From NCBI RefSeq assembly GCF_014203605.1, contig NZ_JACHJJ010000022.1:26804-90803 (forward strand): 64,000 bases of DNA, read 5' to 3'. The position numbers were made by a program, and so were the translations under genes. Each line of letters opens with the position of its first letter. Within the stretch, counting starts at the first letter, position 1. Below, in pieces: positions 18,128 to 38,112 of the stretch. This DNA comes from Thiemannella venezuelensis (GTDB lineage: Bacteria > Actinomycetota > Actinomycetes > Streptosporangiales > Streptosporangiaceae). The notes beneath the pieces were generated by a model, which was not told the DNA's origin, did no database searches, and saw only the letters and a program-made list of their open reading frames with translations.

Positions 18128-18141
18128 TAGAACAGATTCTA
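18128..18141. promoter_or_regulatory. KstR-box-like palindrome upstream of fadD operon
   Basis: TAGAACAGATTCTA: one mismatch (ATT for GTT) to TNNAACNNGTTNNA, with matching TAGAA/TTCTA outer bases. Lies 42 bp before the fadD start in a 188-bp divergent region, so it may control both the operon and the regulator. Confidence 0.6.
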
Positions 18142-18219
18142 TTATTTGTCCAGCATCAACCCATAGCAATACTCCACAACATGCCGTTATAGGACATATG
18201 CCATGGCCGCTGGCCCACC

Positions 18220-18247
18220 TTTGTGACCCGCGGGTAACCAGTAGGAT
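18220..18247 (+). promoter_or_regulatory. Candidate promoter for the kstR-like gene
   Basis: TTTGTG (18220-18225) and TAGGAT (18242-18247) with a 16-bp spacer, placing a start site near 18254. Weak -35; by eye only. Confidence 0.3.
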
Positions 18248-18260
18248 TATCCAGGAATCA

Positions 18261-18274
18261 GATAACGTGTTCTC
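18261..18274. promoter_or_regulatory. Partial KstR box abutting the kstR-like start codon
   Basis: GATAACGTGTTCTC keeps the AACNNGTT core and an AT/CT surround but lacks the outer T and A. It ends one base before the ATG at 18275, downstream of the candidate promoter, a position that would allow autorepression. Confidence 0.4.
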
Positions 18275-18988
18275 ATGCGTACTCCGCATGCGACCATCGA
18301 GGCGCCGGTGACCCCGCGCCCCGCCGGCACGTCCGCCCCGAGCACCGCCGGCCCGTCCACGACCGAGGGGACCTCTGGCGTGCACACCGAACCGGCGTCC
18401 GCGGCCGTCCGCACCAGAAGCCAGCACCAGCGGCGCAAGCGCATCGTCCAGGCCGCGGCCGCCCTCGCCTCGCGCGGCGGCGTCGAGGCCATGCAGATGC
18501 GCACCGTCGCCGAGCGCGCGGGTGTCGCGCTCGGCACGCTCTACCGCTACTTCCCCTCGAAGATGGATCTGGTCGTCGCCGTCGTCGGCGAGGAGATCGA
18601 CCTCCTGGAGAGCAGCATCGAGCGCCGCCCGCCCAGCGCGGGCACGCCCGCCGGCCGGGCGGTCGACATCCTCATGCGCGCCACCCGGGGCCTGATGCGC
18701 GAGCCCGAGCTCGCCGACGCGCTCATCCGCTCGCTGATCATGGCGGAGGTGGACACCCCCTTCGGGGACCGCATGACGGACCTGCTGCTCCGCGTCGCCG
18801 GGAACGGGATCACCGCGGAGACCGCCACCGACGAGCAGTTCGCCCTCGCGGGCTCGCTCTCCAGCGTCTGGGTCCACGAACTGCTGGAGATGCTGCGCGG
18901 ACGCCGCACCCACGAGCAGATCCAGCGCCGCGTCGAGATCGCCGCCGCCCGGCTGCTCGCCGATTTCCCCGTCCCTCCTTCCACCTGA
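18275..18988 (+). CDS. kstR: KstR-like TetR-family transcriptional regulator
   Basis: 237 residues. After a ~45-residue Pro/Thr/Ala-rich N-terminus comes a TetR DNA-binding domain (RRKRIVQAAAALASRGG, EAMQMRTVAERAGVALGTLYRYFPSK) that closely parallels M. tuberculosis KstR, the repressor of cholesterol uptake and side-chain genes whose effectors are steroid-CoA thioesters. The C-terminal ligand domain is shorter and more divergent. If translation began at GTG 18380 (GAGGGG upstream) the protein would be 202 residues, close to KstR. Divergent from the igr-like operon, followed by the FadA5-like gene, and surrounded by KstR-type boxes. Symbol by homology and context. Confidence 0.82.
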   Translation: MRTPHATIEAPVTPRPAGTSAPSTAGPSTTEGTSGVHTEPASAAVRTRSQHQRRKRIVQAAAALASRGGVEAMQMRTVAERAGVALGTLYRYFPSKMDLVVAVVGEEIDLLESSIERRPPSAGTPAGRAVDILMRATRGLMREPELADALIRSLIMAEVDTPFGDRMTDLLLRVAGNGITAETATDEQFALAGSLSSVWVHELLEMLRGRRTHEQIQRRVEIAAARLLADFPVPPST

Positions 18989-18991
18989 AAT

Positions 18992-36139: not shown

Positions 36140-36230
36140 CACCGGCGGCCGGTTTCTTTCCCGGCTCTTTGCCCGGACCCCGTCCCGCGGTGTTTGAGGG
36201 CCCGGAGCCCGGTGGCTACGGTCGGGACCC

Positions 36231-37379
36231 GTGAGCAACGCGGAGGGCACCGGAGCAGTGACTCAGCGCGGCGAGACCGACGGGGTCGTCGCCCCCGGGC
36301 CGGTCGCACCGGTCGTCCCCGGACCGGCGGCGCCGATCTCGCCCGAATCGGCCGCGCCGGCGGGGCCCGCGCCGGCGGGGCCCGAGCCGGCGGGGCCCGA
36401 GCCGGCGGCGGCCGAGCCGACCGGCCAGGACGCCTCCTGGCCGGTCCGTCCCGGCGGCCCGCGCGGCCTGCTCTGGCAGGATCCCGGCCGGGCCGGCTTC
36501 GGGGCGCTCCGGTTCCGCCTGGGTACGGCCCGCGCCCACCTGGAGGCGGGCTGCCGCTCCTTCCTGACCGGGTTCAACGCGGTCCTCGCGGGCGAGACCG
36601 GCCGGATCGACGACCTCTCCGGGGAGCTGCGCGGGTTCGCCTACGAGGGCGCGGGCATGGCCTGCGCGACGCTGGACGTGCTCACGCTGACCGGCGGGCG
36701 GCGGCTCCGGGAGCTGCTCAGCGGGCCGGGCATGCGCTACCCGCACCTGGTCCACATCGGCGCGGGGCGCGCCTACGCGCGGCTCCGGATCCGCCCGATG
36801 TGGGGCATCCGCGCGGTCCACCCGCTGCTGCGCTGGCTGGCCTTCGACGGCTTCGGCTTCCACCAGGGCTTCGCCGCCGCCGACCGGACCGTCGGGCGGC
36901 AGCGCACCGCCGGGCTGCTGGACCGGACCCGCAGGGCCGTCTTCGACCAGGGACTGGGCCGGATGCTCTGGTTCCACGAGTGCGCGGGCGTGGAGGACGT
37001 CGTCGCGCGCATCGCCGAGTTCCCCGCCGGACGCCACCCCGACCTGTGGAGCGGCGTCGGCCAGGCCGCCGTGTACGCCGGTGGCGCGACCCCGGCCGCG
37101 CTGGAGCGGCTGGACGAGGCCGCGGCCCGCGTCGGCCTGCGCGCGCACCTCGCCCAGGGCGGAGCCTTCGCCTGCGCCATCCGGATGATCTCCGAGATCG
37201 TGCCCGGGCACACCATCGACGCCGCGCCCGTGCTCTGCGGGGCGGAGGTGGACGAGGCCGCCGGCTGGACCGACACCGCGCTCATCGCGCTCGGCCACAA
37301 CGCCCACAGCGCCGAGCACTACCAGGCCTGGCGGGCCGGGGTCCGCAAGGCCTGGTCCCGCCGCGCGCGCCTGCCCTGA
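36231..37379 (+). CDS. DUF1702-like protein
   Basis: 382 residues. The first ~80 are Pro/Ala/Gly low complexity with three 15-bp repeats (PAGPE). From LRFRLGTARAHLEAGCRSFLTGFNAVL onward it resembles DUF1702, known from enediyne and other natural-product clusters, function unknown. FAYEGAGMACATLD, HIGAGRAYARLRI, GFGFHQGFAAADRTV and ALGHNAHSAEHYQAWRAGV are the conserved parts. GTG start; a later start beyond the low-complexity part is possible. Convergent with the methyltransferase at 37388. Confidence 0.6.
   Translation: MSNAEGTGAVTQRGETDGVVAPGPVAPVVPGPAAPISPESAAPAGPAPAGPEPAGPEPAAAEPTGQDASWPVRPGGPRGLLWQDPGRAGFGALRFRLGTARAHLEAGCRSFLTGFNAVLAGETGRIDDLSGELRGFAYEGAGMACATLDVLTLTGGRRLRELLSGPGMRYPHLVHIGAGRAYARLRIRPMWGIRAVHPLLRWLAFDGFGFHQGFAAADRTVGRQRTAGLLDRTRRAVFDQGLGRMLWFHECAGVEDVVARIAEFPAGRHPDLWSGVGQAAVYAGGATPAALERLDEAAARVGLRAHLAQGGAFACAIRMISEIVPGHTIDAAPVLCGAEVDEAAGWTDTALIALGHNAHSAEHYQAWRAGVRKAWSRRARLP
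36356..36400 (+). repeat. 15-bp tandem repeat (x3) in the DUF1702-like gene
   Basis: Three near-identical units GCCGGCGGGGCCCG(A/C) coding for PAGPE/PAGPA; a fourth degenerate unit follows. Confidence 0.75.
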
Positions 37380-37387
37380 GGGGCGGC

Positions 37388-38044
37388 TCAGCCGATGCCG
37401 GGGCCGGTGCGCTCCAGCACCCGCAGCGACCCCTCCCTCCGGACCTCCTTGAACGCCCCGGAGGCGAGGACCCGCTGGTAGACGCGGTACGGCGCCTGCC
37501 CGCCGTCGGCCGGGTCGGGGTAGACGTCGTGGAAGACCAGCGCTCCGCCGATCATGACGTGCGGCGCCCAGCCCTCGTAGTCCTTGGTCACCGGCTCCTC
37601 GGAGTGGCCGCCGTCGATGAACAGCATCGCCAGCGGGGTGTTCCAGAGCCGGGCGACCTGCTCGGACCTGCCGACGATCGCGATGACCTCCTCCTCCAGC
37701 CCGGCGGAGGCGATCGTGGCGCGGAAGACGGGCAGCGAGTCCATCTTGCCGAAGCGCGGGTCGACCAGGGTGGGGTCGTGGTGCGCCCAGCCCGGCTGGA
37801 TCTCCTCCGAGCCCCGGTGGTGGTCGACGGTCAGGACCACCGAGCCCGCCTGGCGGGCGGCGGCGCCGAGGTAGACGGCCGACTTCCCGCAGTAGGTGCC
37901 GATCTCGCAGATCGGCCCGAGCGGGCCGTACTCGACGGCGGTCTCGAACAGGACCAGTCCCTCGGGGTGGGGCATGAACCCCTTGGCGCGCTGCGCGGCG
38001 CCCAGCAGGTCGGAGGGCATCGGAGGCGGCGTGGCGTTGCTCAT
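37388..38044 (-). CDS. SAM-dependent methyltransferase, class I (CmcI/O-methyltransferase-like)
   Basis: 218 residues. [36 protein letters not shown] is SAM motif I with the acidic end, [33 protein letters not shown] is the metal-dependent O-methyltransferase-like core (DGGH, HDV). Acceptor unknown. ATG 38044, 55 bp before the KstR box that faces the other way, so the box might affect both directions. Stop is 8 bp from the convergent DUF1702-like stop. Confidence 0.85.
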
Positions 38045-38098
38045 CGGAGCAGACTACCCAGGCCGAACAACATTCCGTACGGCTCTTGCCCGGCCCTA

Positions 38099-38112
38099 TG
38101 GAACGTGTTCTA
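38099..38112. promoter_or_regulatory. KstR box upstream of the PPOX-ferredoxin-ADH operon
   Basis: TGGAACGTGTTCTA, exact match to TNNAACNNGTTNNA. It overlaps a -10-like TACTTT (38111-38116) by two bases, a position suited to repression. Confidence 0.75.

Follow-up and report, generated by a model that had tools for sequence, protein, structure and literature searches.

A predicted KstR-type regulon spanning sterol-type side-chain genes and a methylmannose polysaccharide cluster in Thiemannella venezuelensis

The stretch of Thiemannella venezuelensis DNA analysed here (64,000 nt from a genome of 8.18 Mb in 85 contigs, and referred to below as the window) encodes a TetR-type regulator of the KstR family, an igr-type operon with fadD, a fadA5-type thiolase, a CYP125-family cytochrome P450 and, further along, a group of genes assigned below to the synthesis of methylmannose polysaccharide (MMP). 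Short boxes resembling the published KstR motif, TNNAACNNGTTNNA, stand among these genes, and it is the regulon that they appear to mark that is considered here. Features are collected in Table 1. Genes were called with a simple script based on G+C content by codon position, and start positions are approximate. The Chs and Ltp2 names follow what we take to be the corresponding genes of the mycobacterial igr operon. Among named relatives, Planomonospora sp. ID67723 comes nearest, with 92% identity in the regulator.

Table 1. Genes and boxes of the predicted regulon, in window coordinates
Feature	Position	Strand	Basis or remark
Exact box TCAAACCTGTTCGA	9259..9272	+	Between osmoprotectant-type ABC operon (-) and uncharacterised 461-aa gene (+); weakest of the five exact boxes
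igr-type operon with fadD	11418..18086	-	Same gene order as beside genuine KstR in L193
Ltp2-like	11418-12590	-	
ChsH2-like	12730-13137	-	
ChsH1-like	13137-14114	-	
ChsE2-like	14111-15265	-	
ChsE1-like	15265-16353	-	
fadD	16353-18086	-	Best match steroid-22-oyl-CoA synthetase, 505 bits; cut-off of 900 not reached
One-mismatch box TAGAACAGATTCTA	18128..18141	+	42 bp from called fadD start, 147 bp before regulator start
Near match GATAACGTGTTCTC	18261..18274	+	Abuts regulator ATG; two mismatches by eye, both at outer positions
KstR-family TetR regulator, clade A	18275..18988	+	Profile, structure-relative and tree comparisons
Exact box TAGAACGCGTTACA	18992..19005	+	Before fadA5, just after regulator gene
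fadA5-type steroid 3-ketoacyl-CoA thiolase	19136..20284	+	NF005889, 630.6 bits, above cut-off of 515
Metallo-beta-lactamase-fold hydrolase	20325..21344	+	Homologues between regulator and manT in several relatives
Exact box TAGAACACGTTTCA	26597..26610	+	Before CYP125
CYP125-family steroid C26-monooxygenase-like P450	26710..27909	+	8vxi (CYP125MRCA), 536 bits; other CYP125 entries about 370 bits
Gmd, GDP-mannose 4,6-dehydratase	31772..32800	-	PF16363, 416 bits; divergent from manT
Exact box TAGAACGCGTTTCA	32926..32939	+	Between gmd and manT
manT, alpha-(1->4)-mannosyltransferase of MMP synthesis	33107..34351	+	7qsg, 480 bits; next solved structure 100 bits
S-adenosylmethionine (SAM) methyltransferase, pMeT3 position	34380..35093	+	Position and Pfam methyltransferase domain; no enzyme-specific match
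mmpH, MMP hydrolase (predicted)	35090..36139	+	7qsj, 413 bits alone, 526 bits as 45-sequence profile; Pfam silent
meT1-like 1-O-methyltransferase	37388..38044	-	Sole PDB match 6g7d/6g80/6h40, 268 bits
Exact box TGGAACGTGTTCTA	38099..38112	+	Divergent promoter of meT1 and PPOX-ferredoxin-ADH
PPOX-type F420 oxidoreductase, ferredoxin, NDMA-type alcohol dehydrogenase (ADH)	38122..39900	+	PPOX and ADH models below NCBIfam cut-offs

Five exact matches to the published motif lie in the window, at 9259, 18992, 26597, 32926 and 38099, where shuffled sequence averaged 0.04 matches per window, none of 100 shuffles reaching five. A preliminary description of this DNA had put the chance expectation at 0.06 matches per 64 kb, a value close to that from shuffling, and had listed four of the five boxes, all recovered here, having missed the one at 9259; its statement that these boxes are intergenic holds by our own gene calls for all five. 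The motif was also enriched genome-wide, with boxes before catabolic operons and before the regulator: the exact motif occurred at 31 sites compared to 11 for the reversed control motif, and the stricter form TAGAACNNGTTNNA at 6 forward and 5 reverse sites compared to 0 and 0. When one mismatch to TRGAACNNGTTNYA was allowed the enrichment was lost (88 forward and 80 reverse sites compared to 142 and 120), and genome-wide scans of this kind are useless by themselves. In a scan of 25 genomes, the five without clade A (the group to which the window regulator belongs) or KstR yielded 14 strand matches compared to 19 for the control, and the other twenty yielded 219 compared to 73 (summed by hand).

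Conservation was followed in two samples. The first comprised the best 80 of 251 regulator-orthologue loci, amounting to 1.59 Mb and bearing titles of Streptosporangiaceae genera or of the family (the named loci; the family placement of some of these genera is our assumption), and the second comprised 80 family genomes with their own loci (the family-genome loci). Main counts used the published motif; a position matrix, trained on the same 80 named loci, gives scores that are not independent. Exact motifs numbered 97 in the named loci compared to 0 for the control, with at least one in 75/80. An exact box stood within 330 bp before fadA5 in 66/69 named and 9/13 family-genome loci, and it accompanies this gene even where fadA5 sits away from the regulator; corresponding boxes were found before CYP125 in 13/15 named loci, before manT in 7/7 named and 32/77 family-genome loci, and before meT1 in the one named locus (1/1) and in 2/3, 0/2 and 0/6 loci of families f28, f20 and f6, with a control count of 0 for each gene. 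In 78/80 named loci, a box with at most one mismatch lay no more than 350 bp ahead of the regulator (control 0). The motif is thus enriched both before catabolic operons and before the regulator gene, as in a KstR-type regulon. A chance origin of the boxes is ruled out by the shuffles, the genome-wide excess and the counts at orthologous loci; the boxes are real, and the case for them is better than the preliminary description had made it. The near matches at 18128 and 18261 had been described as flanking the regulator gene; both are conserved, the former with one mismatch, and both lie upstream of the start at 18275.

The regulator is the only clear KstR relative in the genome, being the best match to the KstR model, with a runner-up of 44 bits, and having KstR structures as its best solved relatives (E 1.8e-32). 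Its DNA-binding part shares 71, 76 and 78% of residues with three KstR rows and its recognition helix is nearly identical to that of KstR; against a fourth KstR row, from f28, the DNA-binding part is 71% and the ligand part 29% identical. Compared to KstR2, another TetR regulator of cholesterol genes, the window regulator scores 27 bits to the KstR2 structures and 116 bits to those of KstR; the motif of KstR2 is AnCAAGnnCTTGnT (PMC3068626). Of the 69 rows in the tree, the 29 of clade A fall on one side of a single branch (support 100/100) and 11 KstR rows are separate from them (99/99), so that clade A does not group with genuine KstR; outgroup rows are on long branches and the tree gives no deep order of the groups. 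Clade A membership was assigned by the tree for these 29 rows and by score alone for other genomes. Among the 80 family genomes, the best KstR-model match scored 113–153 bits in 60 and was a genuine KstR above the cut-off in 10, and 10 had no match below E 1e-20.

Some clade A genomes carry a further KstR-like protein. Clade C is our label for ten second matches to the KstR model (L279–L288; 102–123 bits), chosen partly by contig linkage to hsaC, kshA or ltp2 and found in ten genomes that also have clade A. Both clades belong to the KstR family; clade C differs from clade A in sharing a contig with hsaC, kshA or ltp2 (10/10, partly the criterion by which it was selected), and as one group it is weakly supported in the tree (83/74). 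Three more second matches (L289–L291) form a separate branch. Genomes with second matches that were not entered in the tree as such, of 79–87 bits in G002, G050, G065 and G091 and of 118–128 bits in G009, G056 and G089, were counted as lacking clade C.

The boxes at 32926 and 38099 stand at both transcription units of what is predicted to be an MMP cluster. Homologues of ManT, MmpH and MeT1 occur together here, scoring 480, 413 and 268 bits to solved structures, the last of which we take to be those of M. hassiacum MeT1. ManT keeps its EGF motif at residue 319. The protein encoded at 35090–36139, for which a terpene or prenyl enzyme had been considered until the MmpH match overturned that candidate, is predicted to be MmpH; its structural model is confident (pLDDT 91) and the positions aligned with Glu262 and Glu265 are invariant in 45 sequences. 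Residue 38 of this protein (35201–35203), at the position of M. hassiacum Asp50, is Asn here and in 68/114 loci, some of which come from one genome; the D50A exchange drastically reduced the activity of the M. hassiacum enzyme (PMC9883506). The genes manT-pmeT3-mmpH and meT1 correspond, by homology and position, to the four-gene cluster meT1, mmpH, pmeT3 and manT of nontuberculous mycobacteria (PMC9883506), and MMP synthesis is predicted from them. In the window, pmeT3 is a candidate assigned by position, meT1 is inverted and parted from the others by a DUF1702 gene, gmd is divergent from manT, and KstR-type boxes precede both units; the Asn at the Asp50 position is a further difference from the mycobacterial cluster. 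The 38099 box parts meT1 from the PPOX-ferredoxin-ADH genes.

Presence of the box at manT follows that of the regulator. With manT detected in 78/80 family genomes at E 1e-120, an exact box precedes it in 32/60 clade A genomes and in 0/9 with neither clade A nor KstR. Where gmd and manT are divergent, an exact box lies between them in 30/31 clade A genomes compared to 0/8 without clade A (Fisher p 1.5e-7). In these 30 boxes the motif letters were prescribed by the search itself; at the third base, which the motif leaves free, G is present in 30/30, the second is A in 29/30, the inner spacer and left flank are variable, and the right flank is partly conserved. Just 3' of the window box, at 32940–32960, positions resembling CCGAAC...GTTCGG are conserved in the 30 genomes and could represent a second element or a promoter. 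Long loci were compared for 30 clade A genomes, namely G042 and 29 in which the genes are laid out differently. In 25 of them a box stands between genes of the run that leads to manT, in some cases several kb upstream of manT; 12 of these boxes are exact and the rest have one mismatch and also had to pass the matrix score. No such box was found in the gene run of 18 genomes without clade A. The clade A gene is within 25 kb of manT in 53/60 genomes and on another contig in 7. One locus (L223, from G050) has a single stop codon within the manT frame, though its box is kept.

This association recurs elsewhere, with KstR-family regulators linked to the MMP cluster in three of the families examined. 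In f20, represented by one genus, manT occurs in 11 genomes, each with just one KstR-family protein, the gene for which adjoins manT and is divergent from it; an exact box lies between the two genes in 11/11. In genus g107 of f28, for which 7 of the 8 genomes with manT were sampled (G126 was left out), KstR stands beside manT with a one-mismatch box in 4/4 KstR-bearing genomes, and there is no box in the 3/3 without KstR; genome-wide strand matches range from 35 to 39 in the former compared to 0, 4 and 1 in the latter.

Taken with the gene identities, these observations lead us to propose, with a probability of roughly 80%, that a KstR-type repressor responsive to a CoA thioester governs MMP synthesis jointly with sterol-type side-chain oxidation. 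The boxes, their conservation, the gene identities, the co-occurrence of the boxes with the regulator and the lack of detectable KshA and HsaC were computed; binding, repression, the inducer and the purpose of co-induction are what we infer from them. The boxes would be the operators of the TetR repressor encoded at 18275–18988, which would shut off its own gene, fadD with the side-chain beta-oxidation genes, fadA5 and CYP125, and likewise manT-pmeT3-mmpH and meT1 together with the adjoining gmd and PPOX-ferredoxin-ADH genes. An accumulating CoA thioester, of a sterol-like side chain or of another branched acyl chain, would bind the ligand domain, which has diverged, and would thereby release the repressor from the DNA, so that side-chain enzymes and an acyl-CoA-binding polysaccharide would be made together.

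Several results weigh against this interpretation. The regulator scores 142.9 bits to the KstR equivalog model NF033703, below the cut-off of 280, and its ligand part is 21–35% identical to the same three KstR rows; because of both, the inducer may have nothing to do with steroids. An exact box precedes manT in 0/9 genomes that have genuine KstR but no clade A. None of seven f6 genomes has a box directly before manT (in one, a box lies ahead of a ferredoxin-reductase-manT operon), and no KstR-like neighbour of manT was seen in the loci fetched from f19, f16 and f14, which cover 3 of 11, 3 of 8 and 1 of 1 with manT. Exact boxes precede CYP125 in just 2/9 family-genome loci and meT1 in 8/28, a minority in either case. 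That a box in a divergent spacer controls both genes is an assumption. Finally, the named loci and family-genome loci share genomes, and clade A presence follows phylogeny within the family, so the counts from them are not independent.

Not every site need function equally. In a version compatible with the proposed co-control, and to which we give even odds, the fadA5, CYP125, gmd-manT, 38099 and 18128 boxes are real operators, the 9259 box is lineage-limited or due to chance, and the 18261 site is a promoter element. The 9259 type of exact box before the ABC gene recurs in just 3/64 named loci (control 0); it is nevertheless exact in the window and in all three of these (L046, L048 and L050, from Planomonospora and Planobispora). 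The 18261 site holds TAACGT at -12 to -7 of the ATG, a TANNNT -10 element if the transcript is leaderless, and its core TAACGTGTTC is kept in 80/80 named loci; against a pure promoter role, it retains an AAC..GTT core. It could equally be an operator or the -10 element of the regulator, and it was not counted as an operator because the core also spells TANNNT at the leaderless distance.

The preliminary description had joined these genes into a single steroid response. Part of this is supported, namely a regulon of KstR type whose conserved boxes precede fadD-igr, fadA5, CYP125 and PPOX-ferredoxin-ADH; a single steroid response under KstR is not supported as stated, given the score below cut-off, the separate clade and the failure to find KshA or HsaC, and the site that it had assigned to gmd and a glycosyltransferase belongs to the MMP cluster. 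That this is nonetheless an ordinary KstR regulon serving the complete breakdown of steroids, with the MMP genes as mere passengers, we regard as unlikely. It would fit the fadA5 product scoring above the steroid thiolase cut-off, the clear CYP125, the igr-type genes and the identity of the motif with that of KstR. Ring degradation is where it falls short: KshA gave 0 matches at E 0.001 and HsaC 0 at E 1e-20 in this genome and in a congener, while 8/41 genomes searched pass the cut-off for the former and 8/80 for the latter. The search for ring degradation covered these two proteins (KstD, HsaA, HsaB, HsaD and the KstR2 regulon were not searched for), and because neither was found, complete steroid degradation by this organism seems doubtful.

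The distribution of these genes across the family points the same way. Ltp2 was detected at E 1e-100 in 44/80 family genomes. In the 50 clade A genomes without clade C, it is present in 25 and HsaC of at least 300 bits in 0; 21 of the 50 have Ltp2 and no HsaC match at E 1e-20. The ten clade C genomes, in the selection of which linkage to these genes played a part, have Ltp2 in 10/10 and HsaC of at least 300 bits in 9/10, and such HsaC is also found in 9/10 genomes with genuine KstR. Genome G013 keeps the regulator, the box, gmd and the MMP genes; neither fadD nor fadA5 lies within the 20 kb fetched, and a search of the genome gave no Ltp2 match. The substrate of the regulon may accordingly be a sterol-like side chain, the rings being left uncleaved, or a different acyl chain. 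In this genome, locus L155 on contig C3 has box pairs at 3857–3923 and 7995–8081, three of the four boxes being inexact; they precede a nitronate-monooxygenase-like gene and adjoin a DprE1/DprE2/UbiA/PgfA locus; a steroid ring cluster had been considered there and was ruled out by the DprE1/DprE2/UbiA locus.

That a different regulator binds the boxes and the KstR-like gene merely adjoins them is very improbable: 52 proteins of the genome match the KstR model at E 0.001, nearly all of them weakly, and set against such a pool of candidates are the 44-bit runner-up, the near-identity of the recognition helix to that of KstR and the joint presence or loss of box and regulator in the seven g107 genomes.

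Relatives of Rv3520c and of Rv3545c/Rv3546, the latter of which we take to be CYP125 and fadA5, carry boxes here. In L157 (at 14998) and L135 (at 5099), a strong box lies between an Rv3520c-type F420 oxidoreductase gene, scoring above the family cut-off, and a sulfatase gene. The KstR of M. tuberculosis (Rv3574) is a TetR repressor with the same motif, TNNAACNNGTTNNA, an autoregulatory site and boxes at Rv3520c and Rv3545c/Rv3546 (PMC1995591), so that the system predicted here is like the mycobacterial one in its TetR regulator, its motif, the box before the regulator and the boxes at CYP125 and fadA5. It differs in a regulator of a separate clade below the cut-off, in kshA and hsaC not being found and in the boxes at the MMP cluster, which the available portion of PMC1995591 does not mention for the mycobacterial regulon. 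In that paper S. coelicolor SCO2319 is put forward as a possible orthologue of KstR, though one lacking synteny, and an M. smegmatis box is placed at MSMEG_6475, close in number to the MMP genes MSMEG_6481–6484. The ligand of KstR is a steroid CoA thioester (PMC6678751) and KstR paralogues occur outside mycobacteria (PMC3388012). In a KstR study in Nocardioides simplex, the words 'glycosyltransferase' and 'methyltransferase' do not occur (PMC7807495), the main text of PMC9883506 has no word starting with 'regulat', and no paper linking KstR to MMP genes was found in what could be seen of the open-licence PMC literature.

Two groups of neighbouring genes were noted in addition. At 22117–26187 lie aldo-keto reductase, SDR, enolase-superfamily and FAA-hydrolase genes, adjoined by a GntR gene at 21381–22055; we take the set to resemble one for deoxy-sugar catabolism. 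At 30852–31591, a small gene is followed by one with HTH-like sequence, an arrangement that looks toxin-antitoxin-like by eye.

Sequestration of fatty acyl-CoA is a long-standing proposal for the role of MMP (PMC9883506). As a more tentative extension, for which the odds are about one in three, KstR-family repressors across several actinomycete families might primarily govern MMP synthesis by sensing acyl- or steroid-CoA, with the mycobacterial cholesterol regulon as a later enlargement and MMP as an inducible acyl-CoA buffer. The presence beside manT, in three families, of a repressor family that in mycobacteria responds to a steroid CoA thioester makes the function of this polysaccharide directly testable, and it also suggests that, where steroid ring degradation is lacking, KstR-like genes have a different job.

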